DNA of 64,000 nucleotides from Pseudodesulfovibrio tunisiensis (GTDB taxonomy: Bacteria > Desulfobacterota > Desulfovibrionia > Desulfovibrionales > Desulfovibrionaceae), in NCBI RefSeq assembly GCF_022809775.1, contig NZ_CP094380.1, forward strand, positions 372,001-436,000, read 5' to 3'. A program made the translations under genes and the position numbers. Numbering within the stretch: the stretch's first letter is position 1; each line of letters begins with the position of its first letter. This document shows, piece by piece, positions 6,949 to 39,008 of this stretch. Under the pieces are notes generated by a model. That model did no database searches, was not told where the DNA came from, and worked only from the letters and a program-made list of their open reading frames with translations.

Positions 6949-7716
6949 TTGACTTACCAGTTCAATTGGAATGTTCTGTTTTCCGGTGAACCGGCGCAGT
7001 GGATATTCGAAGGTTTTCTGACCACCATTCAGATTTCCGCCTTTGCCCTGATTGCGGCACTGGCTCTCGGAATTCTCATTTGCGTTCTTCGCATGACACC
7101 TGTTCGGCCCCTGCAATGGTTCAGTCTGGCATATACCGAGTTCTTTCGGAATACGCCGCTGCTGGTCCAGATTTTCTTCTGGTACAATGGTTCCCACTAC
7201 ATCATGCCGGAGGCGATTCGCACCTGGCTCAACGATCTGTATTACTGGTTCCCCGGCCCCTTCACCATGTTCGGCCATTCGTTTCAGGGCGAATGGATCC
7301 TGTTCAACGTGGAATTCATCACCGGGGTCATTGCCCTGACCGTGTACACTTCGGCCTTCATTGCCGAGGAAATCCGCGCGGGCATCTTTTCCATTCCCAA
7401 GAACCAGCTTGAGGCGTCCCGGGCCGTGGGCCTGTCCTTTCTGCAGGCATACCGGTTCGTGATTCTGCCGCAGGCGTTGCGGATCGTGATTCCGCCGCTT
7501 ATTTCCCAGGCTCTGAACCTGATAAAGAATTCGTCCCTGTGCATGGTCATTGGCGTGACCGAACTCATGTTCATGGCCAGTCAGGTCGAGTCCTACTATG
7601 GTGCGCCGTTTGAGGCCTTTTCCGCGGTATTGCTGATTTATCTGGTGATTTCGCTCTTTGTTTCGCTGTGCATCAACATGTACAACAAGCATTTCATGAT
7701 TCAGGTGCGGTACTAG
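6949..7716 (+). CDS. Amino-acid ABC transporter permease (HisM/GlnP type) 1
   Basis: A 255-residue inner-membrane permease with about five helices. The cytoplasmic EAA loop that docks on the ATPase is visible as QLEASRAVGLSFLQAYRFVI followed by LPQALRIVIPPL. The N terminus has the 'GFLTTIQISAFALI' start typical of polar amino-acid permeases, and an extra-long loop around residues 75-110 contains many aromatic residues. The start is TTG at 6949; no ATG fits and the ribosome site is weak, so the first few residues are uncertain. It forms the transmembrane pore together with the next gene (9 bases on). Confidence 0.9.
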   Translation: MTYQFNWNVLFSGEPAQWIFEGFLTTIQISAFALIAALALGILICVLRMTPVRPLQWFSLAYTEFFRNTPLLVQIFFWYNGSHYIMPEAIRTWLNDLYYWFPGPFTMFGHSFQGEWILFNVEFITGVIALTVYTSAFIAEEIRAGIFSIPKNQLEASRAVGLSFLQAYRFVILPQALRIVIPPLISQALNLIKNSSLCMVIGVTELMFMASQVESYYGAPFEAFSAVLLIYLVISLFVSLCINMYNKHFMIQVRY

Positions 7717-7725
7717 GAGGGCGGA

Positions 7726-8442
7726 ATGCATTGGGAAATCGTTTGGGATAATTTCGACTATTTCCTGTGGGGCGCGGCCAGAATCGACAGCGCGTTCCCC
7801 TTCATCCACAACGTGGGCGGACTCGCCGCCGGTGTGATTCTGGCATTCTTCGGCATTTTCGGTGCCTTCTGGCTCGGCATCGGGGCAGGACTCATGCGTC
7901 TGTCCAAGCGGTGGTGGGTCAAGTTGCCGGGACTCGTCTATATTGAAATGATTCGCGGCGTTCCGTTGCTGCTGTTGATCTTCTGGTTCTTTTTTCTGGC
8001 TCCTGTTCTGTTGGGACAAGCCTTGCCCGCGTTCCACACCACGCTGATCTGTTTCATCGTGTTCACCGGAGCCTATGTGGCGGAAATCGTCCGTGCCGGC
8101 GTGCTTGCCCTGCCTTCGGGGCAGATGGAAGCGGCGCGGGGAACCGGGTTGTCCCATGTGCAGGCCATGCGCCTTGTCATCCTGCCGCAGGCGCTCAGAA
8201 ACATGATTCCGTCATTCGTGAACCAGTTCGTTTCCTTGACCAAAGATACCTCGCTGGCCGCAATTATCGGCGTGAACGAGTTGACACGGACCGCTGTGCA
8301 GGTGGACAATCGCGACATGATCGCGTCTTTTGAAATCTGGATAACCATTGCGGCCATGTATTTTCTGATCTGTTTCGTGCTGACTTCGTTCAGCCGCAGG
8401 CTGGAAAAGCAACTGTCGCGCTATCAGGCGAGGAACCGCTAA
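7726..8442 (+). CDS. Amino-acid ABC transporter permease (HisM/GlnP type) 2
   Basis: A 238-residue second permease with an EAA loop QMEAARGTGLSHVQAMRLVI followed by LPQALRNMIPSF. The segment 'YIEMIRGVPLLLLIFWFFF' is typical of this permease family. AGGAGGGCGG precedes the ATG. It ends with TAA directly abutting the ATG of deoC (no gap), so translation is probably coupled to the next two genes although these are not transporter genes. With its neighbours it completes an ATPase / binding protein / two-permease importer for a polar amino acid. Confidence 0.9.
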   Translation: MHWEIVWDNFDYFLWGAARIDSAFPFIHNVGGLAAGVILAFFGIFGAFWLGIGAGLMRLSKRWWVKLPGLVYIEMIRGVPLLLLIFWFFFLAPVLLGQALPAFHTTLICFIVFTGAYVAEIVRAGVLALPSGQMEAARGTGLSHVQAMRLVILPQALRNMIPSFVNQFVSLTKDTSLAAIIGVNELTRTAVQVDNRDMIASFEIWITIAAMYFLICFVLTSFSRRLEKQLSRYQARNR

Positions 8443-9108
8443 ATGGAACTGACTCCGCAGGATATTGCCGGACATATCGACCACACCCTGCTTCGACCCG
8501 ACGCCACGGCAGCGGATTTGGAAAAAACATGCGCCGAGGCCGTGCGACACGGTTTTTTCGGCGTGTGCGTGAACCCGTCCCTGATCTCGCTGGCGAGTTG
8601 GCTGCTGCGGGACAGGACGCCCGTGCCCGTGGCCGTGGTCGGCTTTCCTCTGGGCGCGACCCTGCCCGAGGTCAAGATGTGCGAAGCGCGCGAGGCCGTG
8701 TGCCGGGGAGCGCAGGAAATCGACATGGTCATGAATATCGGGGCGTTCAAGGCTCAGGATTTTCGGGCCGTGGCCAAGGACATACGGACCGTGGTTGAAG
8801 CTGTTCAGGATCGTCCGGTCAAGGTCATTCTGGAGACCGGGCTGCTTTCCGATGCGGAAATCGTGGAAGCCTGCGGGATTTGCGTTGATGCCGGAGCTGC
8901 CTTTGTCAAGACGAGCACGGGATTCGGCCCGGGCGGGGCAACTGTGGAGCATGTCCGGCTCATGCGCGAGATCGTCGGCCCGGATGTCGGGGTCAAGGCC
9001 AGTGGCGGGATCCGGACCTTCGAGGAGGCCGTTGCCATGATCGAGGCCGGAGCCAGCCGCATCGGAGCTTCCGCTTCCGTTGCCATCGTGACGGAGCCGG
9101 AAGCATGA
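8443..9108 (+). CDS. deoC: Deoxyribose-phosphate aldolase
   Basis: A 221-residue class I aldolase splitting 2-deoxyribose-5-phosphate into glyceraldehyde-3-phosphate and acetaldehyde. Family motifs are IDHTLLRPDA at the N terminus, GFFGVCVNP, VGFPLGATLPEVK, the Schiff-base lysine in AFVKTSTGFGPGGAT (about K156) and VKASGGIRTFEEA. Length is normal. The start codon abuts the stop of the upstream permease, and its own stop overlaps the next gene by four bases (ATGA). It belongs to nucleoside catabolism, so its place in an amino-acid transport operon is odd; no other deo gene is adjacent. Confidence 0.93.
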   Translation: MELTPQDIAGHIDHTLLRPDATAADLEKTCAEAVRHGFFGVCVNPSLISLASWLLRDRTPVPVAVVGFPLGATLPEVKMCEAREAVCRGAQEIDMVMNIGAFKAQDFRAVAKDIRTVVEAVQDRPVKVILETGLLSDAEIVEACGICVDAGAAFVKTSTGFGPGGATVEHVRLMREIVGPDVGVKASGGIRTFEEAVAMIEAGASRIGASASVAIVTEPEA

Positions 9109-9752
9109 CCCATACCCGTTTGCAGCAGTTCTTCACGCCTCGCGGCATCGAGGCGGAGTCCTTTCGCATCATTGACTCCGAGGTACCGGACCCCAGACCG
9201 TATCAGGGGCCTCAGTGGGAGATCGTGCGGCGCATGATTCATACCACTGCGGATTTCGAGATGCTTGATCTGGTACGATTTCATCCGGGCGCTGTCGAGT
9301 CCGGGCGCGATGCCCTGAAACGTGGCTGTGACATTGTCACGGATACGGAAATGGCGCGCCGGGGCATTCCGGTTCGTCGCATGGATCCGCTCGGCTGCAC
9401 CGTGCATTGTCTGATGAATGACGAGCGCGTGGTTGCCAGAGCCGGGGAACAGGGAACCACCCGGGCTTTTGCTGCCGTGGACGTGGCCGTGGACGAACTG
9501 CGGCCCGAGATTTTCGTTATCGGCAATGCGCCCACGGCTCTGCTTCGCCTTCTGGAGCGTTTCGAAGCCGGAGACATTGCTCCGGCCCTTGTGGTCGGAA
9601 TGCCCGTTGGATTCGTCAATGCTGCGGAATCCAAGGATTTGCTTATTCAGAGCGAACTTCCCTACATTGCCATTCAGGGGCGCAAGGGCGGCTCCGCTCT
9701 GGCAGCCTGCGTGGTGAACGCCATAGCGGAAATGGCGCTTTCCTCGGAATAA
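9105..9752 (+). CDS. cbiC: Precorrin-8X / cobalt-precorrin-8 methylmutase
   Basis: A 215-residue protein with the CobH/CbiC pattern: VRRMIHTTADFEML near residue 45 (the histidine is the catalytic candidate), GCDIVTDTEMARRGI, and GNAPTALLRLLE followed by VVGMPVGFVNAAESK. It catalyses the methyl shift from C-11 to C-12 that yields (cobalt-)hydrogenobyrinate in corrin synthesis. It overlaps deoC by four bases and is the last gene of the transcription unit. Other cobalamin genes are not in the window; an isolated pathway gene is common in Desulfovibrio-type genomes. Anaerobic (cbi) naming is preferred from the organism type, not from sequence. Confidence 0.9.
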   Translation: MTHTRLQQFFTPRGIEAESFRIIDSEVPDPRPYQGPQWEIVRRMIHTTADFEMLDLVRFHPGAVESGRDALKRGCDIVTDTEMARRGIPVRRMDPLGCTVHCLMNDERVVARAGEQGTTRAFAAVDVAVDELRPEIFVIGNAPTALLRLLERFEAGDIAPALVVGMPVGFVNAAESKDLLIQSELPYIAIQGRKGGSALAACVVNAIAEMALSSE

Positions 9753-13371: not shown

Positions 13372-14295
13372 TTACATTCTGTGAAAGGGCGTTCCCAGTG
13401 CGGCTGGAGCTCCGCCGCGACTTGAGGCCGCGAATTTCTTGACCAGCACGAGTACCGCGATGGTCAGGACATAGGGGAGCATCTTGAGCACCCAGGAGGG
13501 CACGAGTTCCGATCCTCCGGCTTCCACGTTCCATTGCAGGGCGGCCAGTGCGCCGAAGAGCAGTGCGCCGAGCGCAGCCCGACCGGGACGCCAGCCCGAG
13601 AAGATGACCATGGCTATGGCGATCCAGCCCTGTCCCATGGTCATGCCGTCCTTCCAGCCCGGGGTATAGGCGAGCGAGAGGTAGCAGCCGCCCAGTCCGG
13701 CCAGCATGCCACCGAAGAGCACGCATGCCCAGCGGAGCAGGAGCACGTTCACGCCCATGGCGTCTGCAGCGGCCGCGTCTTCGCCCACGGCCCGGATTTT
13801 CAGGCCGAGAGAGGTGCGGAAGAGCAGCCAGGAGGCGGCCGGGACCAGCAGATAGGCCACGTAGGCCAGTTCGTTCTGCCGGAAAAGAATGTCGCCGATG
13901 ACCGGGATGTCGGACAGGCCGGGAATCGGAGTTATGCCGAAACGCACGCCGCGTACGCCGATGATGGATCGGCCCAGAAATCCGGCAAGTCCGCCGCCGA
14001 GAATGGTGATGGCAAGGCCGGAAAGGGTCTGGTCCGCCTTGAGCGTGATGGAGAAGAAGCCGTGCACTGCGGCAAGGGCCGCACCGGCCAGCATGCCGCA
14101 ACCGGCTGCGATCCACGGATCGCCCCAGGCCACTCCGGCGGCCGCGCCGACCATGGCACCGAAGAGCATCATGCCTTCCACGCCCAGATTGAGCACGCCG
14201 CTACGTTCCGCAAACACTTCACCCACGGCGGCGAACAGGACGGCTATGGACGACTTGATGGCGATGGTGGCGATGAATGCCAGAGAATCAAGCAT
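13372..14295 (-). CDS. BMP-type nucleoside ABC transporter permease 2
   Basis: A 307-residue membrane protein with 8-10 helices in the BPD_transp_2 family (YufQ/NupQ-like). Typical segments are AVGEVFAERSGVLNLGVEGMM (an 'ERSGVLNLGVEG' box seen in these permeases), GLKIRAVGEDAAAADAMGVN in the cytoplasmic loop and IAMVIFSGWRPGRAALGALL near the C terminus. It overlaps the first permease gene by eight bases and is the last gene of the operon. With its neighbours it should import nucleosides or purine bases. Confidence 0.87.
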   Translation of the reverse strand: MLDSLAFIATIAIKSSIAVLFAAVGEVFAERSGVLNLGVEGMMLFGAMVGAAAGVAWGDPWIAAGCGMLAGAALAAVHGFFSITLKADQTLSGLAITILGGGLAGFLGRSIIGVRGVRFGITPIPGLSDIPVIGDILFRQNELAYVAYLLVPAASWLLFRTSLGLKIRAVGEDAAAADAMGVNVLLLRWACVLFGGMLAGLGGCYLSLAYTPGWKDGMTMGQGWIAIAMVIFSGWRPGRAALGALLFGALAALQWNVEAGGSELVPSWVLKMLPYVLTIAVLVLVKKFAASSRGGAPAALGTPFHRM

Positions 14296-15361
14296 GGTCG
14301 TCCTCCTTGCCGAAACTGATGGTGTAGCGGGTTACGGCCTCGGCTGCGAGCAGTCCCAGCAGGAGCGAGCCTTCCAGCACCAGTCCGATGGACGAGGGGA
14401 GTTGCATTACCGACTGGAGCCGGTCCGCGCCGATCAGGAAAGTGCCGAGCACGGCGGCGTAGGCCGGAACCAGAGCCGGACGCAATCCGGCAAGGCAGGC
14501 AACGATGATGCCATCGTATCCGTAGCCCGGGTTGATGCCCTCGCGGATCACGTAATGGATGCCGCAGACTTCGCCCATGCCCGCGAGTCCGGCCAGCGCA
14601 CCGGCCAGCGCCATGACCGTGAAGGTCTGGCGCGTGGCGTTGATGCCACCGTATCGCGCGGCCCGGGGGCTGTGACCGGTGACCCGGATGCCGTAGCCCC
14701 ATTTGGTCTTGGACAGGAGATAGTGCAGACAGACCGTGGCGAGCACGGCCACGAGGGCGCCCATGTGCAGGCGGGTTCTGCCCAGTCTGGGCAGCCATGC
14801 CGCGTCCGGGAAGATGGGCGTGCCCGGAAAGCCGAAGCCCATGGGATCGCGCCACGGCCCGAAGTAGAGATGTTCCATGAAGATGATGGCCACGTAGTTG
14901 AGCAGCAGGGTGGTCAGGATTTCACTGACGCCGTACTGCACCTTGAGCGCGGCCGGGATCATGGCCCACATGGCTCCGGCTGCCGCTCCGAGGAGCAGAC
15001 AGGCCGGAAGCACCAGAGAAGTCGGCAGGTGCGGGGACAGATACAGAGCTCCCCAGCCCGCGCCGATCGCGCCCCAGACGAACTGGCCTTCTGCTCCGAT
15101 GTTCCAGAGCAGCATGGTCGCGGCCAATGCCACGGACAGGCCGGTCAGGGTCAGGGGGATCATTTTCACGCCCACTTCGGCCAGACCGTTCATGCTGCCC
15201 AGCGCACCCGAGATCATGACCTGATAGGCGTGCACGGGAGCCACGCCCTGACTGATGAAGACCAGTGCTCCGGCCAGCAGGGCAAAGCCCACGGCCAGCA
15301 GTGCGGTGACCAGTCCCTTGCGCCTGATGGGTTCCGTGCGTTGGCGGATGCGAAGGCTCAT
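14288..15361 (-). CDS. BMP-type nucleoside ABC transporter permease 1
   Basis: A 357-residue permease of the same family (YufP/NupP-like) with about nine helices. A LWNIGAEGQFVWGAIGAG box corresponds to the 'NIGAEGQ' motif of this group, and the loop TKWGYGIRVTGHSPRAARYG is the probable ATPase contact. Its start overlaps the stop of the ATPase gene by four bases (ATGA), so translation is coupled. It pairs with the next gene to form a heterodimeric channel. Confidence 0.87.
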   Translation of the reverse strand: MSLRIRQRTEPIRRKGLVTALLAVGFALLAGALVFISQGVAPVHAYQVMISGALGSMNGLAEVGVKMIPLTLTGLSVALAATMLLWNIGAEGQFVWGAIGAGWGALYLSPHLPTSLVLPACLLLGAAAGAMWAMIPAALKVQYGVSEILTTLLLNYVAIIFMEHLYFGPWRDPMGFGFPGTPIFPDAAWLPRLGRTRLHMGALVAVLATVCLHYLLSKTKWGYGIRVTGHSPRAARYGGINATRQTFTVMALAGALAGLAGMGEVCGIHYVIREGINPGYGYDGIIVACLAGLRPALVPAYAAVLGTFLIGADRLQSVMQLPSSIGLVLEGSLLLGLLAAEAVTRYTISFGKEDDHA

Positions 15362-27368: not shown

Positions 27369-27428
27369 TCCTTGGTACCCGGAGCGGGAATCGAACCCGC
27401 ACAGACCGAAGTCCGAGGGATTTTAAGT
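27369..27428. repeat. attL: 60-bp direct repeat (tRNA-Leu 3' fragment)
   Basis: Identical over 60 bases to 38918-38977. Bases 27373-27428 correspond, on the minus strand, to tRNA-Leu from the anticodon loop to the CCA end. The sequences diverge immediately outside the repeat. Confidence 0.92.
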
Positions 27429-27567: not shown

Positions 27568-27612
27568 TGGAGTTCTCCCCACATGATCAAGTCTTTCCTT
27601 GGGAGGTCGGTC

Positions 27613-28737
27613 GTGGCAGCCGTCAAACGTCACAAGACGCAATATCCGGGAGTGTTTTTCATTGAGTCGTCAGAATCTGCAACAGGCAAGCCGGAGCGTA
27701 TCTACTACATTAGATACTACAAGAAAGGAAAGTCTGTCGAGGAGAAAGCTGGACGCCAACATAAGGACAACATGACTCCAGCAAAGGCAAGTCGGATTCG
27801 TGTGCTTCGGCTTTCCGGAAAGATGGACTCCAACAATGAACGACGGGACAAGCTGAGAAAGAAGCGTGAAAGACTTACCCTGAATCGGATATGGGAAGCC
27901 TTTTTTGACTACAAGCAAAGCAACAAGAGCATCAGGAGTGACCGCTATCGTTGGAACAGGCACTTGCGGGAGGATGTTGGAGACAAGTTGCCGGAAGAGG
28001 TGACGACTTCTGATGTCGATGCCATCCGCAAGAAACTGGAAGCGCGGGGGCTTGCTCCTGCAACGGTAAAGCAGGCTCTTGTCCTGTTGAAGCGTGTGCT
28101 CAATTTCGGGGCCAAGCGTGGGCTGTGTACGCCTGTGGATGTGGCCCGGATTTATTTCGATATGCCAAAGGTCAACAATATTCGGACAGAGGATTTGTCC
28201 GAAGAGCAGTTGGAGCGGCTGCTTGATGTGTTGCACCATGAGCCGGACCGGACGCCCGCCAACATCATGCTTTTGGCCTTGTTCACCGGGATGCGAAGAG
28301 GGGAGATATTCCGGCTTGAATGGGAGCATGTGGACTTCGAGCGAGGATTCATTTTCATCAAGGACCCGAAGGGAATGGTGGATCAGCATATCCCCATGAA
28401 TTCCTCTGCCCGTGAGGTTCTGCTTGAGCAACTTGAAGTTCGCCGGAACGAGTACGTTTTCTATGGACGCACTTGCAAACCTATCCGGGACATGCGGATT
28501 CCATTTCGGAATATTTGCGACAAGGCGGGGTTGCCCAAGGATTTCCGTCCGATGCACGGGTTGCGGCATGTGTTTGCCTCGACTCTTGCCAGTTCCGGCA
28601 AGGTGGACATGTACACCCTGCAAAAGCTGCTTACCCACAAGAGTCCGCAAATGGTTCAGCGTTACGCCCATTTGCGGGATGAAGCTCTCATTGCTGCTTC
28701 CGAGTCCATAGGCGACCTGATGAAGCGGAAGAACTGA
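27613..28737 (+). CDS. int: Tyrosine-type site-specific integrase
   Basis: A phage-type tyrosine recombinase of 374 residues. Catalytic residues are visible: R228 in FTGMRRGEIFRLEW, H315 and R318 in MHGLRHVFAS, and the nucleophile Y351 in MVQRYAHLRDEAL. An N-terminal arm-binding region (YPGVFFIESS...ERIYYIRYYKKGK) and a core-binding SAM-like domain (residues ~85-165) precede the catalytic domain. GTG 27613 is preferred because GGGAGG lies 7 bases before it; ATG 27583 is the alternative. It points into the element from attL and should catalyse exchange at the tRNA-Leu 3' end. Confidence 0.92.
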   Translation: MAAVKRHKTQYPGVFFIESSESATGKPERIYYIRYYKKGKSVEEKAGRQHKDNMTPAKASRIRVLRLSGKMDSNNERRDKLRKKRERLTLNRIWEAFFDYKQSNKSIRSDRYRWNRHLREDVGDKLPEEVTTSDVDAIRKKLEARGLAPATVKQALVLLKRVLNFGAKRGLCTPVDVARIYFDMPKVNNIRTEDLSEEQLERLLDVLHHEPDRTPANIMLLALFTGMRRGEIFRLEWEHVDFERGFIFIKDPKGMVDQHIPMNSSAREVLLEQLEVRRNEYVFYGRTCKPIRDMRIPFRNICDKAGLPKDFRPMHGLRHVFASTLASSGKVDMYTLQKLLTHKSPQMVQRYAHLRDEALIAASESIGDLMKRKN

Positions 28738-28754: not shown

Positions 28755-28785
28755 ATTTTACCACAACGTGATAAATATTTTACCA
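28755..28785. promoter_or_regulatory. Direct repeat at the start of the AAA_14 gene
   Basis: ATTTTACCA occurs at 28755-28763 and 28777-28785, exactly 22 bases (two helical turns) apart; the second copy ends on the A of the start codon. It could be an operator. No ribosome site is visible there. Confidence 0.35.
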
Positions 28786-30011
28786 TGTACGCACGAAATA
28801 TCACCCCGGAGTTGCTGGAAGCCCTTGAAGATTCGCCGGTTCTGTTCCTGCGTGGAGCACGGCAGGTGGGCAAGAGCACGTTGGCCAAGGAATTGCTGGC
28901 GGACAGATTCCCGGCCAAGTATGTCAGTCTGGACAACGCGACGGCCTTGGCTGCGGCGACGAGCGACCCCACGGGATTCATTGCGGGCCAGCCTCGGCCA
29001 TTGATCATAGATGAGGTGCAGCGCGTTCCGGAACTGCTGTTGGCAATCAAGGAGGACGTGGACAACAATCGGCGTCCCGGCCAATTCCTGCTGACGGGAT
29101 CGGCCAACCTGCTGACCCTGCCCATGGTGAACGAGTCTCTGGCCGGACGAATGGAGATTCAGACCTTGTGGCCGTTGTCTCACGCCGAACAGGTGGGGCG
29201 GAAAACGGATTTCGTGCATGCGCTGTTCAGCGGAAGCATTGCGGATTTCAAATCGGATGAGCCGTATGATCTGCCTTCCATGCTCACTGTCGGCGGCTAT
29301 CCCGAATCCGTATCGAAAAAGTCCGCCAAACGGCGGGCAGGATGGTTCGACGCCTATCTGACGTCCATTGTGGAGCGGGACATTCGGGATATTGCCCGCA
29401 TACAGGAGACAACCACCATGCTGCGCCTGTTGCGGCTGCTGGCAACGCGCACGGCCAACCAGCTCAATCAGTCGGAGCTGTCGCGAACCATACAGGTGCC
29501 GAACGCCTCTCTGGGGCGGTACATGAATCTGCTGGAAAAGGTGTTCCTGATCCACTTCCTTCCGGCATGGTCCGCCAATCTGGGCAAACGACTGGTCAAG
29601 GCTCCCAAGCTCTACATGGTGGATTGCGGCCTTGCCGCCCATCTCATGGAAGCGGATGCCGACCGCCTGACCTCCTCGCCGGAAATCGCAGGGCAGCTTC
29701 TGGAAACGTTCGTGGTCAACGAAGTGCTCAAGCACCTGACTTGGAGTCGAGTCATGGCAACCCCGTACCACTTCCGCACCCATGCGGGCCTAGAAGTGGA
29801 CCTCGTCCTTGAACGCCCCTCGGGCCAGCTCGCGTGCATCGAAATCAAGCACTCCGCCCAAGTCGCCGCCAAACACTTCCGGGGCCTCAAGTCCCTCCGT
29901 GACGATCTGAACAACCGCTTCCAAATCGGCGTTGTCCTCTACACCGGCACGGAAGTCGTCCCCTTCGGCGACAGGCTGTACGCCGTACCGCTGGGGGCGT
30001 TGTGGGAATAA
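28785..30011 (+). CDS. AAA_14 / DUF4143 family ATPase
   Basis: A 408-residue protein with Walker A GARQVGKST at residues 24-32, Walker B LIIDEVQRVPEL near residue 72, sensor-type LLTGSANLLTLP and an arginine-rich follow-up. The C-terminal DUF4143 part has a restriction-endonuclease-like pattern (ETFVVNEVLKHL, HFRTHAGLEVDLVLERP, CIEIKHS), i.e. the E-x-n-D-x-n-ExK arrangement of PD-(D/E)xK folds. Such ATPases are common accessory genes with no settled function. It follows the integrase gene by about 50 bases, lacks a ribosome site and has a direct repeat overlapping its start codon. Composition resembles the host chromosome. Confidence 0.85.
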   Translation: MYARNITPELLEALEDSPVLFLRGARQVGKSTLAKELLADRFPAKYVSLDNATALAAATSDPTGFIAGQPRPLIIDEVQRVPELLLAIKEDVDNNRRPGQFLLTGSANLLTLPMVNESLAGRMEIQTLWPLSHAEQVGRKTDFVHALFSGSIADFKSDEPYDLPSMLTVGGYPESVSKKSAKRRAGWFDAYLTSIVERDIRDIARIQETTTMLRLLRLLATRTANQLNQSELSRTIQVPNASLGRYMNLLEKVFLIHFLPAWSANLGKRLVKAPKLYMVDCGLAAHLMEADADRLTSSPEIAGQLLETFVVNEVLKHLTWSRVMATPYHFRTHAGLEVDLVLERPSGQLACIEIKHSAQVAAKHFRGLKSLRDDLNNRFQIGVVLYTGTEVVPFGDRLYAVPLGALWE

Positions 30012-30078
30012 AATTAAAAAACGGAAATTGGCTGGTTGATTTTGGGGCCGAATTCGATGGTGCCGAGTGGGCAATTTT

Positions 30079-30125
30079 GATTTGTAATCAGTAGGTCAGG
30101 GGTTCAATTCCGATTCCTGGCTCCA
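30079..30125 (+). other. tRNA-Thr(UGU) 3' relic
   Basis: Forty-seven bases read as the anticodon arm (GATT-TGT-AATC), variable region, a T-loop TTCAATT and an acceptor end TGGCTCCA, as in tRNA-Thr(UGU). The 5' half is absent and the T-stem has mismatches, so it is not a working gene. It resembles the att fragment left when an element uses a tRNA 3' end. Confidence 0.6.
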
Positions 30126-30134
30126 ACGGAATCA

Positions 30135-30165
30135 AGCGCTTATGAGTGATCATAAGCGCTTTTTT
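30135..30165 (+). terminator. Terminator after the tRNA-Thr relic
   Basis: AGCGCTTATG-AGTGAT-CATAAGCGCT, a perfect 10-bp stem, followed by T5. Confidence 0.85.
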
Positions 30166-30169
30166 CGTG

Positions 30170-30191
30170 CCTTGGTATACGCCTTGGTATA
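30170..30191. repeat. CCTTGGTATA direct repeat pair (12-base pitch)
   Basis: CCTTGGTATA at 30170-30179 and 30182-30191. The pitch equals that of the element's arm-type sites, but the sequence differs. Its position just behind a tRNA 3' relic suggests arm sites of a different integrase. Confidence 0.5.
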
Positions 30192-30295
30192 TAAATTAGG
30201 ACAAGGGGATGCCCTAGGAGTGCCGGTGTGTATATTGAGGGGGGCTTGGATAAAATAGTATTGTGTCTCTCAATTTCATCCCAATTTCAAGGCGT

Positions 30296-30324
30296 TTGAC
30301 GACATACTTTTATGGGAATATATA
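30296..30324 (+). promoter_or_regulatory. Sigma-70-type promoter for the PHP-ABC gene
   Basis: TTGACG at 30296-30301, a 17-base spacer, TATATA at 30319-30324. About 107 bases separate it from the ATG at 30432. Confidence 0.6.
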
Positions 30325-30431
30325 GGGTTCTAAAATTTGACATTCGGTCTAATTGTGTAATTTCGGCAAGCCATAGACCTTTGTACGTAACAAGCAAAAA
30401 CGTTTGAGCATACGAAATTAAGGAAATCGCC

Positions 30432-33173
30432 ATGAGCTATCCAAAAGGATCAGAGTGGAGAAAGTGGGATTTGCATGTCCACTCTCCTGAGTCTGCTTTT
30501 GCAAATGAGTACGAAGGGGCTACACCTGAAGAGAAGTGGGAAAAATATCTTGAATGCTTGGAACAGCTCGAAGACATAGCCGTCTTGGGTATTACAGATT
30601 ATTTTTCAGCCCAAGGCTACAGCAAGGCTCAAGAATTCAAGAATGCTGGCCGTCTTAACAATGTCGAAATGCTCCTTCCCAATGTCGAGCTTCGTCTTGA
30701 TCACAACACTAGGGAAGGGAATGCAATAAACATCCATGTCATTTTTCACCCAGAGGTATTAGTTCTCCTGACGGATGTATTCTTCCCGAACTTAAAATTT
30801 ACCTACCGGGGAAATGAGTTCAGCTGCACTAGGGCTGATTTAATTCGTCTCGGTAGAACATACACCGGGAATCAAACCCTAGAGGAACCCGCCGCTTTTA
30901 AGCAAGGGGCAAATCAGTTCAAGGTGAGTGTCGATGATCTGAGAAAAGTATTAACAACAAACACCGATTTCTTGGGCAAATATTTGATCGTTGTCCCAAA
31001 CAGCCACAGGGATGGAAATTCAGGACTGCGCGAGGGAAACTTGAAAGCTCTCAGAGAGGAGCTTTACCGATTGGCTGATTGTATTTTTTCTTCAAACCCC
31101 AAAGACAGGGAATACTTCCTAGGTAAGGGGCCTGATTCTTGCGAAAACATAATTCAAAATTATGGTGCACTAAAGCCGTGCATTCACGGTTCTGATGCTC
31201 ATTCCCTGGAGAAAATCTGTGTTCCTGATGAAGACAGATTTACATGGATCAAAGCCGATCCAACCTTCGATGGATTGAAGCAAATTCTCTTCGAACCTGA
31301 AGACCGCGTGAGAATCCAAAAAGAATCTCCTGCCCTTGAATACCCCAAAGCTCACTTTAGCTCTATTCGGGCCTGTGGGAATATTTTTGCGGATGACAAG
31401 CCCTGTTTCAAGAATTCATCAATTCCTCTCAATCATAATTTGGTGACTCTGATAGGTGGCCGAGGAACGGGAAAAAGTTTGCTTCTGGATGTAATCCATC
31501 GCACATTCCATGAACCTTCAGCTTCAGGTGGGATGTCTCAGGAACGTCTCTCGCGCATCGGCAATCCCGATTTTGATATTGTCTTGACCAAAAGCGATGG
31601 CGAGGAAAGCTTATTCAGTAAAGGAGATGAAATTTTTGCCTTCGATTACCTGCATGTCAGACAAGGTGAAGTTAAGGATGTTGCTGAGAATAAAAGGGAG
31701 CTTGGGGAAGCAATTAAAAGACTGCTAGGCTTTATTCAAAACGATTCACGCTCTTCTTTGAGTAAGAATATTTCATCCCTCAATCGAGACCATGATGAAC
31801 TTCAAGCCTGGCTTGAGAAGGAAAACGCTGAAGGTCAGCTCGTTAATTCTGAAGAATATCAGACGAAGCGGAAAGTCGGTCTTCAAAACTTGAAAGATAC
31901 TATTACCACCGAAGAAATCAAAGAAAGGATTTCTTCGTTCAGTAGCAATTCCAGCTTAATCGGAAAGCTCAACAAGGCTAAGACCGAATCAAGTTTTATC
32001 AGTGATGAGTTGAAGGCTGCTGAACTTCGATTGAACCAACAGATATCGTCTTTGAATGCCAAGGACATTGGAATGGAGACACGTATCAACGAAGTTGATT
32101 TTTCTATGCTCCAAGATCAATTGAAGCAATACTGTGATGAGGTTGAAAACAAAACTAAGAGCCTTGAAAAAAGCAATTTGAAGATTTCAGAAGAGCTTTT
32201 GGCTAAAGGCATCAAAGGTGACATCTCCGGGCTTCTCGACAAGGTGAACGAGTACCAGCAAGGAATTGAGGATTGCGACTCAATGCTTGAAGAAATAGCC
32301 GCCTCAAAAGATAAACTGAAATCCAAATGTCAACAGCGGGTCTCTCTCGCCCAAGATGTGGTTGTTTCCATAGAAGAAGAGTTAGAGTCCTTTGAGAGAA
32401 AGTTCGCTGAGATTGTCGAAGGCCGTCCAGGAATGACTGACGAACACAAAGAAATTCTCCAAGATTTGCTCAAGAATATTGAAATTAGGGGGGAGTTGCT
32501 TTTTGACCAAGACCAGTTCTTAGAAGGGTTGAATGAGTTCTTCGACGGACGGAGGATTCGAAAGGAAACGCTGAAAGATGTCTTCTCGATTTCATCAGCC
32601 GACGACTATTTTTCACTCATCCTGAATGCCCCGGTTTTGAATGTGATACAGGATAAGTATCAAAGTCTCACCGAGTTCTCTTTGGATACAGATTGGTTCT
32701 TGAGAAAAAATATATACGAGTTCTACAACTATCTTTACTCAGAGGATTCTCGCAGAAGATATTTACAGGTAGTTCCAAGCATTAAGTATTTCGGAAAAGA
32801 CCCGCAACAGCTGTCAGTGGGGCAGCGTGGAACATTCTATATTTGTTTAAAACTTGCCACGTCAGCTTTTCTCACGCCTTTCGTGTTCGACCAGCCTGAA
32901 GATGATTTGGATAACGCATTCATTGTCGAAGAGCTTGAGCCAATTTTTAGGAAGATCAAAAAACACCGCCAGGTAATTATTGTCACCCACAACGCCAACC
33001 TGGTTGTGAACTCCGATGCTGAGCAGATCATCATTGCCAGCAACAACGATGAAGAAATCTCATATGTATCTGGCTCTCTTGAATGCCCTGAAATAAGAAA
33101 AGAAGTGTGTAGAATCCTTGAGGGTGGCGAAACTGCTTTCAAGAAAAGAGAACTGCGCTACGAGTTGACTTAA
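30432..33173 (+). CDS. PHP-domain ABC/SMC-like ATPase (TrlF-like), candidate defence protein
   Basis: A 913-residue fusion. An N-terminal PHP phosphoesterase domain (residues ~1-330) has H15-x-H17 in DLHVHS, D56 in ITDYF (the usual TDH histidine is Tyr), a histidine in IFHPE, another in NSHRDGN, and H252 plus D255/H257 in HGSDAHS. An ABC-type ATPase follows: Walker A GGRGTGKS at 342-349, a long coiled coil at about 430-700, signature LSVGQ at 794-798, Walker B FVFDQPEDDLDN with D820, and H-loop IIVTHNANL. This resembles proteins labelled TrlF-family AAA-like ATPases and the SMC-type nucleases of bacterial conflict systems. It is notably AT-rich against its neighbours. DNA- or RNA-directed nuclease activity is inferred, not shown. 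Confidence 0.8.
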   Translation: MSYPKGSEWRKWDLHVHSPESAFANEYEGATPEEKWEKYLECLEQLEDIAVLGITDYFSAQGYSKAQEFKNAGRLNNVEMLLPNVELRLDHNTREGNAINIHVIFHPEVLVLLTDVFFPNLKFTYRGNEFSCTRADLIRLGRTYTGNQTLEEPAAFKQGANQFKVSVDDLRKVLTTNTDFLGKYLIVVPNSHRDGNSGLREGNLKALREELYRLADCIFSSNPKDREYFLGKGPDSCENIIQNYGALKPCIHGSDAHSLEKICVPDEDRFTWIKADPTFDGLKQILFEPEDRVRIQKESPALEYPKAHFSSIRACGNIFADDKPCFKNSSIPLNHNLVTLIGGRGTGKSLLLDVIHRTFHEPSASGGMSQERLSRIGNPDFDIVLTKSDGEESLFSKGDEIFAFDYLHVRQGEVKDVAENKRELGEAIKRLLGFIQNDSRSSLSKNISSLNRDHDELQAWLEKENAEGQLVNSEEYQTKRKVGLQNLKDTITTEEIKERISSFSSNSSLIGKLNKAKTESSFISDELKAAELRLNQQISSLNAKDIGMETRINEVDFSMLQDQLKQYCDEVENKTKSLEKSNLKISEELLAKGIKGDISGLLDKVNEYQQGIEDCDSMLEEIAASKDKLKSKCQQRVSLAQDVVVSIEEELESFERKFAEIVEGRPGMTDEHKEILQDLLKNIEIRGELLFDQDQFLEGLNEFFDGRRIRKETLKDVFSISSADDYFSLILNAPVLNVIQDKYQSLTEFSLDTDWFLRKNIYEFYNYLYSEDSRRRYLQVVPSIKYFGKDPQQLSVGQRGTFYICLKLATSAFLTPFVFDQPEDDLDNAFIVEELEPIFRKIKKHRQVIIVTHNANLVVNSDAEQIIIASNNDEEISYVSGSLECPEIRKEVCRILEGGETAFKKRELRYELT

Positions 33174-33531
33174 TTGATATGGCAGAAAATAGGCTAGTCT
33201 TTTCCATACTACACCGTTCAAATCTCTGTTTTTGATTAGTCTCATTGCACCTACTCATCCTCTCTCCAACTGCTACAAAGTTGTTCTAAAAAATCGTCTA
33301 ACCTTTGGCGAACGATACTTAATAGAATGATTCTCCCGGAATCTGGGAACACAATACTTATTTTAACCACCTCAACCTTCACTTGTAGCCTTCCCGTAAA
33401 ATAGTCCCAGCGAAAAGTAGAGATTTCTAACAAAGTGCCTATGAAGGAGGCAACCCCGGCAATCCCTCCATTCCCAAGGAACCTGAAAAGTAGAGCCTTT
33501 CAACCCGTTGAAAAACACCTCTTTTCCCCAC
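33174..33531. other. Non-coding stretch inside the element
   Basis: About 360 bases between the PHP-ABC gene and the end of the mob module. Only short frames without ribosome sites are present; nothing recognisable. Confidence 0.5.
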
Positions 33532-34944
33532 CTACCTCTCCACCCCCATCACCTTTTCCCGCATCCGCCTGACCAGTTGGAGAGCTTGGCCAAAAGCTGT
33601 TCCAAGTCGTTTTGCAAGGCTTGGCAGGCTTGGAGTTCGGCTTCGAGGTTTTGGATGCGGGCTTCGAGCTGTTGGAAGCGGGTGGTGGTGTCCTTGTCCA
33701 GTTTGCGGAGTGTTTCCGTGAGCAGGCGTTGCAGTTCGGTCATGGGTCATTCCTCCAGTTTGATGGCCGGGCGTCCGTCCCAACTCCAGCGGGTGTTCGG
33801 CGTTATTCCTTTCGGCAGGACGATGAAACGGCCGTTGCTGTCCTGATGCAGTTGTATGCCCCAGCTCTTGGCGGTTTCGAGCGTCTGCTTCTGCTGTTCG
33901 ATCTGGCGGGAGTATTCCCGAATCCTTTGCTGTCTGCCGTTCAGGATGAGGCTCGCTCCGAAGCCGAGGGCAAAGCTGGTCAGCGCCAGCACGGCCAGAA
34001 TGATCAGGCTCAGGAGCGCAGCCCGGTGCCAGCTCCGGTCGAGAGCGTCCAGCTGTCTGGCTCTGAGTCGGTCCATGTCCCGGGCCATGGCGCTGGTGAT
34101 GGTACGCAGCTCGTCGTGCACGGATTGCGTCAAGCTCGCGTTCAAGCGCGTCAATGTTTCGTGAAAGCTCCTCTCGGCTTCGGCATTCCGTTCCTCGACC
34201 TGCGTTTTCAGATTCTCGGTCAGCTCGCCAAGCTTCTGCATAGATTCCTCCTTTCAGGCGCACTCGCTGCCCGTCCTGTCCGGCCTGAACCGTGATGTAG
34301 TCCCTGCCTTTCCGGGGAACGGAAAATCCGGCCTGAATCAGCGCCTCGACAATTCCGCCCCTGTCCGTGATCTGTCCTGCGCCAATGGCCTGAGTCAGGG
34401 CGTCCGTGATGGCCTGTCTGGATGCGGCCCTGTCCCTGCCGAACTGGATGGCCTTGCCCGGCTGCATGACCCGGGCGCGGGCAGGATCATCCGGACGCGC
34501 CCAGCCCATGCGCTCGTTCCACAGGTCGCGCCAGACATCGTATTGCTTCTGCCATCCGGGCGGACATGGATTCAGCGCCTTGCCCTGATACAGCTCTGTG
34601 CGCGGAATCACGAAATGCAGTTCATGGTGCCCGGCGTGGCTGTGCCGGACCCAGAGAATGGCGTAGCGGTCCGGCTCCAGACCGGCAAAGGCCACGGATT
34701 CGAAACTGTCCATGATGTCCTGTTCCCGTTCGGGCGAAACCGGGTCTTCCGGCGCCCATGACAGAACGCCGGATGTGTATTTCCATTTTCGTTCCGTGCT
34801 GTCGATCAGCCGCCGGATCATGCCGGGATCGCCGCGCAGGACCTGCGGCGGACTCTGCCTGCGGCCCTTGCGCAACGGGTCCACCACATAATTGACCACT
34901 TTGGAGCCGCGCCCGGTGCCGTGGGCAAAGACCTTCATATACAT
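33532..34944 (-). CDS. mobA: Relaxase, MobA type
   Basis: A 470-residue mobilisation relaxase. The N-terminal ~180 residues hold the nuclease domain: early tyrosines (MYMKVFAHGTG, VVNYVVDP), and the histidine triad AGHHELHFVIPR near residue 110 that binds the metal. These proteins nick oriT and carry the strand into the recipient. The C-terminal half after residue ~235 is low-complexity (Pro, His, Arg, Gln, Thr), because two other genes are encoded in a different frame of the same DNA. The start overlaps the mobC stop; ATG 34944 has GAGGACG upstream, 34938 is an alternative. Confidence 0.83.
   Translation of the reverse strand: MYMKVFAHGTGRGSKVVNYVVDPLRKGRRQSPPQVLRGDPGMIRRLIDSTERKWKYTSGVLSWAPEDPVSPEREQDIMDSFESVAFAGLEPDRYAILWVRHSHAGHHELHFVIPRTELYQGKALNPCPPGWQKQYDVWRDLWNERMGWARPDDPARARVMQPGKAIQFGRDRAASRQAITDALTQAIGAGQITDRGGIVEALIQAGFSVPRKGRDYITVQAGQDGQRVRLKGGIYAEAWRADRESENAGRGTECRSREELSRNIDALERELDAIRARRAAYHHQRHGPGHGPTQSQTAGRSRPELAPGCAPEPDHSGRAGADQLCPRLRSEPHPERQTAKDSGILPPDRTAEADARNRQELGHTTASGQQRPFHRPAERNNAEHPLELGRTPGHQTGGMTHDRTATPAHGNTPQTGQGHHHPLPTARSPHPKPRSRTPSLPSLAKRLGTAFGQALQLVRRMREKVMGVER
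33549..33743 (-). CDS. MobD/MbeD-like small coiled-coil protein nested in mobA
   Basis: A 64-residue, mostly helical protein (LTETLRKLDKDTTTRFQQLE, then ARIQNLEAELQACQALQ) encoded wholly within mobA in another frame, three bases after the nested mobB-like gene. GGAGGAATGACCC precedes the ATG, a good ribosome site inside the mobA codons. ColE1 carries mbeD in the same nested position, where it aids mobilisation or entry exclusion. The function is transferred by position and coiled-coil character only. Confidence 0.65.
   Translation of the reverse strand: MTELQRLLTETLRKLDKDTTTRFQQLEARIQNLEAELQACQALQNDLEQLLAKLSNWSGGCGKR
33747..34241 (-). CDS. MobB/MbeB-like membrane mobilisation protein nested in mobA
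   Basis: A 164-residue protein lying wholly inside mobA in a different reading frame. AAAGGAGGAATCT before its ATG is one of the best ribosome sites in the window. Residues 1-70 are a charged coiled coil (LGELTENLKTQVEERNAEAE); one helix spans about 75-100 (LLSLIILAVLALTSFALGFG); the tail ends with a compact GRFIVLPKGITPNTRWSWDG segment. RSF1010 mobB and ColE1 mbeB are encoded out of frame within the relaxase gene in the same way. RSF1010 MobB also has a membrane segment and links the relaxosome to the secretion channel. Confidence 0.78.
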   Translation of the reverse strand: MQKLGELTENLKTQVEERNAEAERSFHETLTRLNASLTQSVHDELRTITSAMARDMDRLRARQLDALDRSWHRAALLSLIILAVLALTSFALGFGASLILNGRQQRIREYSRQIEQQKQTLETAKSWGIQLHQDSNGRFIVLPKGITPNTRWSWDGRPAIKLEE

Positions 34945-35243
34945 TTCAGGTCGTCCTCGATGACTGCGAGTCGCGCGATGACTGCGGCAGCCTCGGCGGT
35001 CCGTTTATGGGTGTTGGCCCATCGGGCAAGCTGATTCAGGTTGTTGCCGATGCGGGCGAGCTGAAGCACCTTTTCCCGTTCGACCTTGGTGGAGCGGACA
35101 CGGTGCTGTCCCAGCCGAGTCCGGAGCAGGTCGCCGACGCTCATTCCGGATTCGCTGGCGAGCCGGGCAATGGTGCGTTTTTCCTCGGGCGTCACCCGCA
35201 GGTTCACCCAACAGGTGCGAAGCTGTGCGGTTTCATTCTTCAT
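34935..35243 (-). CDS. mobC: MobC-type relaxosome accessory protein
   Basis: A 102-residue protein with a ribbon-helix-helix-like N terminus (TCWVNLRVTPEEKRTIARLA, ESGMSVGDLLR) and the MobC C-terminal pattern QLARIGNNLNQLARWANTHK. MobC proteins bind oriT and help the relaxase open it. Its TGA overlaps the ATG of the relaxase gene, so the two are coupled. The candidate oriT lies just upstream. Confidence 0.82.
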   Translation of the reverse strand: MKNETAQLRTCWVNLRVTPEEKRTIARLASESGMSVGDLLRTRLGQHRVRSTKVEREKVLQLARIGNNLNQLARWANTHKRTAEAAAVIARLAVIEDDLKCI

Positions 35244-35337: not shown

Positions 35338-35435
35338 CTGGAACCATTATGGTGTATATTTCTCCAAGTCCTTTGGCCGTATGCGTGTCCCTGTCCTTTT
35401 CTCTTCACCTAGGCGAATTTTGCGAATTTACGAAT

Positions 35436-37505
35436 TTACTCGGATTCGGGCGAAGGGAGTAAATTCGTTTCTTCGCAATTTTCGCTTAGGTGAAATATTC
35501 TTGCAGGTCGTCCCCCTCCGACGGGCTTGCGTTCCTCGATGCGGATTTTACCGGCTGCGGAAAGGGTGTTCATGGCAACGGTCAGTTGCGCCTTGGGAAG
35601 ATGGTTGCCAAAAACCTTGTACAGGCCGGTCGTGTCCAGCGAGCCGCCGGCCTCGGCAAGGGCGTTCACAATGCGCTGCTCCACGGGATCGGATTCGAAA
35701 CCACCAAAGATGAAGGCAGCGGAATCCTCGTTGAACCGCCAGAAATCCAGCGCGGCCCGCAGATGTTCCAGAGTCACGCAGGCCGAACCGTCCAGAAGCG
35801 CATAGGTCAGGGCCAGTCTGCGCACGTACACTTCGGCCCGGTTCAGGATGGACCCCAGAAGCGCGGGCCGGTCCGTGGCAACCTGCGGATACATCTCGGC
35901 CCACAGATTCCGGGCCGCATCGTCGAACCGCAGCCTCGCCCGATCCCGTGCTGTTTGCAGATACCCGAGAAGCCGCGTCCGGAATCGGTGCAGTTTTTCC
36001 TGCGACAGCTCTTCCGGAAACGCCACCAGCTTGGGACGTCGAACGCACAGCCAGAGGAACCGGTTGGCAAAGCCGTTCAGCGCCTCGGTCGCGTCCAGCT
36101 TCCGATGCAGCTCGTGCAGGGTGACGTGCGTGACAATGCCGACATGCGGATCGGTCGCGGTGAGCTTGCTGGTCTTGGTCAACGGCTCGATCTTGTCCCC
36201 GTCGAACAGGGCGCGGATGATCGTGGACAGGGTGTTGCCCTCGCGCCGGGTGCAGGAAAGCGCACTGGCAAATTCCTGATCCAGAACGAAAAGGCGTTTG
36301 TCGTCCACGCCCGGATCAACCATCATTTCCCGGCCATTGCCGTTGCGTTTGTCGATGATGTATTCCTGCTGCGGATCGCGGACCGCATAGACAAGCCCCT
36401 CGCCGCTGGAAAGCGGACCGGGTGAAAAACGGCAGGTGAGCCATTCCGTTTCCGGAAAGCGGAACAGTTCCCGGACAGGTCGCGCGGACGTGCCTTTTCT
36501 GGCCTTGGAACTCTGGCCGACAAGCACCGCATTCAACCGGGCGCATTGCGGCTCCCCGGCCAGCATGTGCGGCTTGCGGCCCACCTCGATGCCGAACCGG
36601 CAAAGCAGGGTTGCCAGCACGGCCACGGGATCGGCCTCGGAATGCACGGTGGCGAACCGGGCGAACTCCCCGGCAAAGCCGTGAAACATGGCCGGATGCG
36701 GTGTCGGCCAGCCGTGCACGTCCAGACTGTTGAAGGGGTTGTTTCGCTCCTCCCGGTTCGCTGCCTTGAGTCCGGCCTCCAAACCGCTGCGAATCGTGGA
36801 TTCGGTCTCCCGGGTTCCCAAGCCTGCGCTGCATGCGCTCTGGCTCAAAATCTGTCGCGCGGCCTTGTCCGGCATGTCGCCCTTGGCAACCTGCTGCCCA
36901 AAGGAAAAGGCGAGCCGATTCAGGGTGTCGTTCCGTGCGCCTTTCGGCCCCAGATTTGGATTCGGACCGTCCGAAGGCAATTCGGCCTTGGTTGTCATGG
37001 CTTGAATCAGCCAGTCGGGCGCGGGAGCTGGGGCCAGCTCGTTTACCCATTCATAGGCAGTGCCGTTCGGATGAATGGACGGAGGCAGGATGACGTACCC
37101 GCCGTTTCCCCGGATATCCAATCCCGGCCCGAGTTTCCCGGCCGAGTTGCGCACGTCGATTCCCTGCGGAAGGGCAAGAAACAGGTGCCGCCCGCCGCTG
37201 CCGGTCCTTTGCTCCAATGTGTCGGGCAGCGGCCCGAATTCCTTTTCCAGCCGGGCAAGGGAAACCGGGCCGTCCGGCAGGTCCACGTCCAGCACGAAGC
37301 TGTGCAGCCCCGTGGGCGTGCCCATGTTGGCTTCCGGATGCTGTTTCCACCACGTTCGGACCTGCCCGAGATCGGCTGTCGCGTCCTTGAACCCGTGAGG
37401 CGTGAGCGGACGTTTCCCGGCACACGGGAAAACCGGAATGCCGTGGGTTGCATAAAAGACCGCAGCCAGGGGCAGGCTGCGCCCGTTGAACTGAAGCAGC
37501 TTCAT
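35436..37505 (-). CDS. Primase-polymerase / DUF3987-type replication protein
   Basis: A 689-residue protein. The N-terminal prim-pol domain (residues ~1-190) shows FYATHGIPVFPCAGKRPL, a catalytic-type VLDVDLPDG, GSGGRHLFLALP and LDIRGNGGYVILPPS. The remaining part resembles DUF3987 helicase-like proteins of integrated elements; its P-loop is atypical (VGQSSKARKGTS). A winged-helix-like end precedes the stop. Such proteins prime replication of plasmids and mobilizable elements after excision or transfer. It starts three bases after the AlpA-like gene stop, one operon. Confidence 0.8.
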   Translation of the reverse strand: MKLLQFNGRSLPLAAVFYATHGIPVFPCAGKRPLTPHGFKDATADLGQVRTWWKQHPEANMGTPTGLHSFVLDVDLPDGPVSLARLEKEFGPLPDTLEQRTGSGGRHLFLALPQGIDVRNSAGKLGPGLDIRGNGGYVILPPSIHPNGTAYEWVNELAPAPAPDWLIQAMTTKAELPSDGPNPNLGPKGARNDTLNRLAFSFGQQVAKGDMPDKAARQILSQSACSAGLGTRETESTIRSGLEAGLKAANREERNNPFNSLDVHGWPTPHPAMFHGFAGEFARFATVHSEADPVAVLATLLCRFGIEVGRKPHMLAGEPQCARLNAVLVGQSSKARKGTSARPVRELFRFPETEWLTCRFSPGPLSSGEGLVYAVRDPQQEYIIDKRNGNGREMMVDPGVDDKRLFVLDQEFASALSCTRREGNTLSTIIRALFDGDKIEPLTKTSKLTATDPHVGIVTHVTLHELHRKLDATEALNGFANRFLWLCVRRPKLVAFPEELSQEKLHRFRTRLLGYLQTARDRARLRFDDAARNLWAEMYPQVATDRPALLGSILNRAEVYVRRLALTYALLDGSACVTLEHLRAALDFWRFNEDSAAFIFGGFESDPVEQRIVNALAEAGGSLDTTGLYKVFGNHLPKAQLTVAMNTLSAAGKIRIEERKPVGGGRPARIFHLSENCEETNLLPSPESE

Positions 37506-37508
37506 GAC

Positions 37509-37730
37509 CTACCGCCCGTTTCCGGATTTCATGGCCTGCTGAATCTCGGATTCCAGAGGCCGCACCCCGCACGAATTGACGTACTCCTCAAGGTCATGCT
37601 GCTTGTACAGAACCCTGCGCCCGATCTTGAAATAGCGCGGCCCCCTGCCGATGCATCGCCACACTTCCAGAGTTCCGGCACTTACCCGCAAGACCTCGGC
37701 AGCTTCCTTCGTGTCCAATAGTCTTTCCAT
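37509..37730 (-). CDS. AlpA/excisionase-like helix-turn-helix protein
   Basis: A 73-residue MerR-type winged helix (MERLLDTKEAAEVLRVSAGT, then RCIGRGPRYFKIGRRVLYKQ) typical of AlpA/Xis proteins of integrated elements. ATG 37730 has AAAGGAG nine bases upstream; a longer frame to 37796 has none. It heads the operon with the primase gene and could act as excisionase or regulator. Confidence 0.8.
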   Translation of the reverse strand: MERLLDTKEAAEVLRVSAGTLEVWRCIGRGPRYFKIGRRVLYKQHDLEEYVNSCGVRPLESEIQQAMKSGNGR

Positions 37731-37813
37731 GAAAGCAATCTCCTTTGGTTTGTTTTCATGGAACCGTAGCGAGCTTGACGGAGTCAGCAAGGACACCTGA
37801 CTGATCCGTTACG

Positions 37814-38917: not shown

Positions 38918-38977
38918 TCCTTGGTACCCGGAGCGGGAATCGAACCCGCACAGACCGAAGTCCGAGGGATTTTAAGT
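38918..38977. repeat. attR: 60-bp direct repeat within tRNA-Leu
   Basis: Second copy of the 60-base repeat at 27369-27428, extending from four bases beyond the tRNA CCA end into the anticodon loop. Confidence 0.92.
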
Positions 38978-39008
38978 CCCTTGCGTCTACCAGTTCCGCC
39001 ATCCGGGC
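38922..39008 (-). tRNA. tRNA-Leu (anticodon UAA)
   Basis: 87 bases with the CCA end encoded. Acceptor GCCCGGA pairs with TCCGGGT, the anticodon loop reads CT-TAA-AA, and a long class II variable arm (CGGACTTCGGTCTG) is present. It closely follows the E. coli leucine UAA tRNA pattern. It is the integration target of the element. Confidence 0.95.

Follow-up and report, generated by a model that had tools for sequence, protein, structure and literature searches.

The 64,000-nucleotide stretch of Pseudodesulfovibrio tunisiensis DNA analysed here (the window; bases 372001–436000 of a 3.61-Mb single contig) contained trlF, a gene whose product combined a PHP metallo-phosphoesterase with an SMC/Rad50-like ABC ATPase. 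We consider it probable (about 70%) that this protein is a solitary anti-invader effector, which a mobilizable element carries as cargo in its defence slot, a defence role being likely. The product was a real, intact and mobile PHP–SMC ATPase. Judged by sequence, its PHP and ATPase architecture is already known: the protein is a full-length member of the NCBIfam TrlF family and is related to Ppl (polymerase/histidinol phosphatase-like anti-phage protein, NF042955), which suggests a variant of a defence protein known from bacteria. The preliminary description of this DNA had taken the domain combination as new and had favoured an anti-invader role; the novelty was lost, and the role remained the best reading of the cargo-slot and neighbourhood evidence.

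The trlF reading frame was intact from ATG to TAA and encoded 913 amino acids, with the following features.

30432–33173 (+), trlF, PHP–SMC/ABC ATPase of 913 amino acids (NCBIfam NF045780)
30432–31331 (+), PHP domain, residues 1–300 (AlphaFold2 model and structure matches)
30594–30602 (+), TDY, residues 55–57, where the PHP motif TDH is expected (alignment)
31455–31478 (+), Walker A GGRGTGKS, residues 342–349 (alignment)
31746–32420 (+), short coiled coil, residues ~439–663 (helices in the model)
32811–32900 (+), ABC signature LSVGQ (residues 794–798) and Walker B DQPE (residues 820–823)

The product matched model NF045780 (“TrlF family AAA-like ATPase”) at 547.5 bits (cut-off 350) over profile positions 1–943 of 944, and a scan of genome contigs gave one locus. 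Named relatives in a protein search included proteins of Desulfobaculum (64%) and Desulfocurvibacter (49%). Motif residues were located at H15xH17, T55-D56-Y57, H252-G-S-D-A-H257, G342–S349 (including K348), L794SVGQ798, D820QPE823 and H853. When the protein was aligned with its 120 nearest homologues, the catalytic PHP residues H17, E86 and D255 were present in all 121 sequences, H15 in 120 and H102 in 118; K348 of the ATPase was found in 121/121 and E823 in 120/121 (one gap), and D56 in 109, with Asn in the remaining 12. Both folds, PHP and SMC/Rad50-like ABC ATPase, were modelled with good confidence (predicted local distance difference test score of 92.8 over residues 1–309, the PHP part), and the best structural matches of that part were PHP-bearing enzymes. 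The PHP superfamily features were the predicted fold, H15xH17 and the late D255AH257; Pfam gave no match for this part of TrlF and by itself would overlook the domain. The PHP part had no sequence relatives of note in the PDB, and the family profile found three PDB sequences at E < 1e-4, all Rad50. No Ppl structure was among the structure matches listed, though one may exist.

The ATPase was a split head of SMC/Rad50 type, in which Walker A was followed by the signature and Walker B with a coiled coil between. The preliminary description had thus correctly placed both activities in one protein with intact motifs. The coiled coil that it called long was formed by helices at ~439–663 of the predicted model and was short, not an arm of SMC length. 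Unlike Rad50/SMC heads, the window protein had this short coiled coil with no CxxC zinc hook in residues 439–663 (inspected by eye), and its phosphoesterase was fused rather than supplied as a separate Mre11-type subunit as with Rad50.

trlF was located in an island of ~11.5 kb between perfect 60-bp attachment (att) repeats, which contained the following features besides trlF.

27369–27428, attL, 60-bp copy of the tRNA-Leu 3′ part, perfect direct repeat with 38918–38977
27583–28737 (+), tyrosine integrase of the element (Pfam Phage_integrase, 108 bits)
28785–30011 (+), AAA_14-DUF4143 ATPase (PADLOC candidate model PDC-S01, 535 bits)
30078–30125 (+), possible relic tRNA-Thr-like 3′ end (perhaps an old att site), upstream of trlF
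33532–34944 (−), MobA/MbeA-like relaxase
34935–35243 (−), MobC/NikA-like mobilization protein (Pfam NikA-like, 61 bits)
35436–37505 (−), Prim-Pol replication protein (Pfam Prim-Pol, 165 bits)
37509–37796 (−), HTH_17 regulator (Pfam, 46.5 bits)
38918–38977, attR, 3′ part of the tRNA-Leu(TAA) gene 38922–39008 (−)

With an integrase, att repeats at a tRNA gene and a relaxase, the island is an integrative mobilizable element, which bore out the earlier proposal that trlF is mobile cargo; no transfer apparatus of its own was found among the island open reading frames (ORFs) scanned. The foreign base composition claimed for trlF was also upheld. Its GC content (0.430) and GC content at third codon positions (GC3, 0.453) made it a compositional outlier within the island, as GC3 was 0.59–0.78 in nine other island ORFs measured and 0.64–0.75 in four chromosomal genes.

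The position of trlF was compared with that of cargo in sister elements. A related primase (E ≤ 1e-80) was found in 48 of the 348 genomes of the order, and 12 primase places from among the best-scoring were fetched. mobA was recognisable in seven of the 12 (relaxase homologues adjoining the related primase in 7/12), and a 65% homologue of the HTH_17 regulator adjoined the primase in L138. Four of the seven (L133, L137, L141 and L143) had an integrase beyond mobA with cargo in between, and in 4/4 PADLOC recognised a known defence system in this cargo, judged from selected ORFs: IetAS and PDC-S73 (L133), AbiE (L137), IetAS (L141) and Gabija (L143). The mobA-to-integrase slot of the window held trlF and the PDC-S01 ATPase, so that this AAA_14-DUF4143 ATPase occupied the same slot as trlF. 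The four sister elements shared the primase–mobC–mobA backbone and the cargo position with the window island; they differed in cargo, their far-end integrases were 28–31% identical to that of the window, and L133 lay by tRNA-Thr and L137 by tRNA-Ala, a tRNA being found for neither L141 nor L143. A trlF match was present in 0/12 of the fetched places. No other evidence that trlF serves in defence was as strong as this slot cargo, seen in four loci of one genus. A Cas3c-like protein (779 bits) was also observed a few genes away from a related primase (L140, 8589–10748, −).

Neighbours of family members elsewhere pointed the same way. A TrlF match over the cut-off was found in 27 of the 395 genomes of the phylum searched. 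The 117 ORFs (of 119, two being dropped) beside 20 TrlF-family loci matched 382 of 5027 PADLOC models and 120 control ORFs matched 16, these being counts of models and inflated by redundant ones; the control ORFs contained fewer residues and came from 11 genomes, the TrlF loci from 19. Seventeen of the 20 loci came from the phylum search with the TrlF profile (one, G426, scoring just below its cut-off) and three from the order search with the query, and only six of the 20 were of the type carrying Tyr57 like the window protein. Among 12 other Tyr57-type loci, seven had a recognised neighbour of defence or toxin–antitoxin type: an Abi protein matching PD-T4-5 (L062, 109.6 bits), Gabija (L065, GajA 721 and GajB 571 bits), type I restriction–modification and a NACHT gene (L067, by annotation), S-4TM effector and dynamin-type genes (L063, by annotation), a Fic-type protein (SoFic 80 bits) with a HepT/nucleotidyltransferase pair (L068), and type I specificity subunits (L071 and L073).

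The Tyr in place of the PHP motif's His had been regarded as peculiar to this protein. Tyr57 was found in 121/121 aligned sequences, ruling out TDY as its mark alone; R88 accompanied it in 121/121, and N100 was invariant in 39 rows. In a wider set, Tyr57 (as TDY, TNY or NDY) accompanied loss of the second PHP histidine (“AH”, at about residue 191) and the motifs E-[LFAM]-R and [IVL]-N-x-H, and Ppl and its kin had TDH, SDH or TNH together with AH; PNSHRDG stood in the query at AHIDAAKG of Ppl. A tree of ATPase columns (65 rows, 597 columns) divided the Tyr57 side from the Ppl side with a support of 100 (Shimodaira–Hasegawa-like approximate likelihood ratio test), and an earlier tree that included two further long-branch rows (L058 and L061, dropped from the 65-row tree) gave the same division. 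Both were “quick” trees without bootstrap, and neither included P0001 (97% identical) or five loci that were duplicates. The 41 rows of the query side comprised 38 with Tyr57 and no AH, two with His and AH (L052 and L055) and one with His and no AH (L054), and the 24 rows opposite comprised 21 with His and AH and three with Tyr and AH. On the query side, 24 of the 41 rows had been drawn by taking every fifth sequence from the 120 nearest homologues and thus do not form an independent sample; apart from these and the query, the remaining 16 (nine found using the query itself) comprised 13 with Tyr57 and no AH, two with His and AH and one with His and no AH. L052, L055 and L054 combined an ATPase of the Tyr57 side with a TDH-type PHP domain and may be domain swaps. 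In L044, L046, L047 and L053 of the other branch the HxH of the PHP domain was changed to QxN, and these domains are perhaps non-catalytic.

A plasmid-borne Ppl of E. coli and TrlF of the Yersinia ruckeri plasmid pYR3 both fell on the side opposite the query, so the database name TrlF spans at least two lineages. Model NF045780 was broad: it also accepted TDH-type proteins (623–650 bits), which scored 520–608 bits with the Ppl model, and the window protein shared its PHP and ATPase layout while standing in the separate Tyr57 branch. Judging by the tree, the lineage of the window protein appears to be the one without a studied member found, both studied members found (Ppl and TrlF of the temperature-restriction operon, TRL) being placed on the other branch. 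Ppl resembled the window protein in having PHP and ABC ATPase in a single protein, in its Walker B DQPEDDLD and in its occurrence on plasmids. It differed in keeping SDH and the later AH histidine where the window protein had TDY and no AH histidine, and lay across the 100-support branch; the window protein scored 128.9 bits with the Ppl model, not reaching its cut-off of 1000.

The homologue of TRL TrlF on pYR3 likewise had PHP and ATPase and the same family name, but it had a TNH motif, fell on the other branch and was followed by a TrlG-type gene, whereas the window trlF was solitary, no trlG-type partner (AlbA_2 and HATPase_c_4) being found among the island ORFs scanned. On pYR3 the ORF after the trlF gene shared 62.5% identity with one found beside other family members. 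In excerpts of the Photorhabdus paper this pair is named as a syntenic TRL locus and TrlG is described as AlbA_2 plus HATPase_c_4 (PMC7554251). Membership of the window protein in the name-giving TRL operon, considered through a relative on Y. ruckeri pYR4, was ruled out by the position of the TRL-type pYR3 TrlF on the other branch. Y. ruckeri plasmid NZ_CP084649.1 carried a full-length relative (34.4%) of the window protein at 7049–9730, and also a TrlG-type gene (66881–68020) whose annotation adjoins or overlaps that of another TrlF. At L077, L078, L079, L080, L081, L082 and L085 an adjacent ORF matched PADLOC pAgo (7/10 ORFs scanned); six of these loci had members on the other branch, the L078 member being absent from the tree. 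In all, 11 neighbour ORFs with a pAgo match were rejected as Argonautes, since 3/3 tested by Pfam were SLFN_AlbA_2 plus HATPase_c_4 and TrlG-like. The temperature-restriction cassette may be widespread.

From the features computed here (both folds, conserved catalytic motifs, a mobile cargo position and an association with a defence slot and defence neighbours) we infer dimerization, a hydrolase activity, its substrate, a trigger and protection, which may be joined as follows. Two ATPase half-sites (Walker A at ~348; signature and Walker B at ~794–823), linked by the short coiled coil, would pair across a dimer. Bound ATP or another nucleoside triphosphate (NTP) would keep the PHP domain inactive, and nucleic-acid ends, or the collapse of nucleotides in phage replication, would shift the ATPase state. 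The freed PHP active site would then degrade nucleic acid of the invader (or the cell), like the distant relative Ppl. According to an excerpt of a review, which there cites no reference for the mechanism, E. coli Ppl is a single-stranded DNA (ssDNA) 3′–5′ exonuclease kept off by NTPs bound to its PHP domain as well as its NTPase domain, and triggered by nucleotide depletion and 3′-OH ends (PMC12904381). By analogy, the gate, in which an SMC-like ATPase controls a PHP effector, may be carried over from Ppl with moderate confidence, and the exact Ppl chemistry only with low confidence, given the difference at two PHP histidines.

Several points weigh against a defence role or against Ppl-like action. 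The four readable slots were all from one genus (g34), two of them with the same system, and were therefore not independent, and the AAA_14-DUF4143 gene upstream of trlF matched a PADLOC candidate model only. Among the 12 other Tyr57-type loci, four (L064, L066, L069 and L070) had no recognised defence gene among the ORFs scanned or annotated, and L072 had weak matches only (LmuB 81 bits, pVip 46 bits). Two PHP histidines of Ppl are missing in the Tyr57 branch, which may therefore have a different chemistry or none. Finally, a literature search found no functional data on the Tyr57 branch: for the whole word “TrlF”, no paper but the Photorhabdus one was relevant, judging by the matches listed, and Ppl was not mentioned in the excerpt of the DefensePredictor paper (PMC13092281).

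It is quite possible that the protein has the same defence role without being an ssDNA exonuclease of Ppl type, its remodelled Tyr57 site holding one or two metals and having a different substrate, be it RNA, tRNA, nucleotides or one particular kind of DNA end. The constancy of Tyr57 together with R88 and N100, and the separation of its branch from Ppl in the ATPase tree, argue for this, but the retained, presumed PHP ligands H15, H17, E86, H102, D255 and H257 could suffice for Ppl chemistry. If the loss of two histidines meant instead a degenerate PHP domain, serving as nucleotide sensor or structural module while the ATPase does the work, the loss of HxH in a few members of the other branch (L044, L046, L047 and L053) would fit; the constancy of H17, E86 and D255 (121/121) and of H15 (120/121) makes this unlikely. 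A function in maintenance or transfer of the mobile element itself (DNA processing or exclusion of competing elements) could be read from relatives in 340 plasmid records and from the mobilization genes adjoining trlF, yet it is improbable given that no trlF match was present in the 12 fetched primase places, four of which had known defence systems instead, and that its composition was unlike that of the mob genes. Very unlikely is a growth-restriction or stress switch in place of defence, like the Photorhabdus temperature-restriction locus. The family name does derive from that operon, but the selected mutations at the TRL locus were mostly in trlG and, in the excerpt, none in trlF (PMC7554251); moreover, the pYR3 homologue fell on the other branch and the window gene had no trlG-type partner among the island ORFs scanned. 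The reading as an anti-invader effector was retained.

Further features of the island were observed around trlF. The promoter of its own once proposed for trlF was not found, as a scan of 29900–33600 gave no promoter-like site upstream on the + strand and four sites in total against 4.9 expected by chance; a 28-nt repeat with TTGACA at 27508 and 30335 (75%), common to the stretch before int, was suggestive at most. Between the DUF4143 gene and trlF (30078–30161) the tRNA-Thr-like 3′ half was followed by a 12-pair hairpin with a T run. The tRNA-Thr-like stretch (30078–30125) was 80% identical over 49 bp to the host tRNA-Thr(TGT), the alignment ending in CCA, and was not called as a tRNA by ARAGORN or Rfam; tRNA-Thr was also near two places with a related primase (L132 and L133). 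An inverted repeat with 38-nt arms (84%) at 35404–35494, between the primase gene end and mobC, is a candidate origin of transfer or terminator. Two ORFs nested in other frames within the relaxase gene (33747–34241, −, and 33549–33743, −) are presumably similar to MbeB/MbeD of ColE1-type mobilization, and the 164-amino-acid nested ORF had 27–30% homologues overlapping mobA in six sister elements (L133, L135, L136, L137, L141 and L143). In eight fetched genomes of the genus the tRNA-Leu beside the YcaO gene had no trlF match, but the exchanger gene of the left flank could not be located there, giving no clean empty junction. In L114 of the same genus a further partial copy of the tRNA, together with an integrase (6995–7051 and 13913–14560), was seen at the same tRNA-Leu site, which may be an integration hotspot.

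The wider family was large, with 5849 relatives at E ≤ 0.001 among 7998 candidates scored. Relatives at E ≤ 1e-60 were found in four of the 348 genomes of the order, two of which, including that of the window, belonged to its genus (36 genomes). In plasmids, a relative at E ≤ 1e-40 was found in 340 of 72,556 records, mostly enterobacterial; 249 of the 340 were typed conjugative, 105 had one place covering at least 80% of the query, and all six plasmid relatives inspected had Tyr57. In phages, one of 50,697 records had a partial relative (29%, 47% covered). A megablast-level search of the plasmid collection matched only short tRNA-region pieces of the island. This sporadic spread over genomes and plasmids fits a horizontally moved accessory gene.

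A wider proposal, which we hold as tentative and somewhat doubtful, is that the Tyr57 branch forms an enzyme class of its own: a mobile defence of one gene, widely spread, with a rebuilt PHP site (two metal histidines lost; Tyr, Arg and Asn fixed), acting on a substrate other than the ssDNA ends reported for Ppl under the same SMC-like NTP gate, and filed under the name of a growth-restriction operon of the other branch. Should the Tyr57 branch prove to be a defence system, a common gene directed against phages or plasmids carries the name of a growth-restriction operon, and the comparison with Ppl would reveal how one SMC-like gate is coupled to two different PHP active sites.

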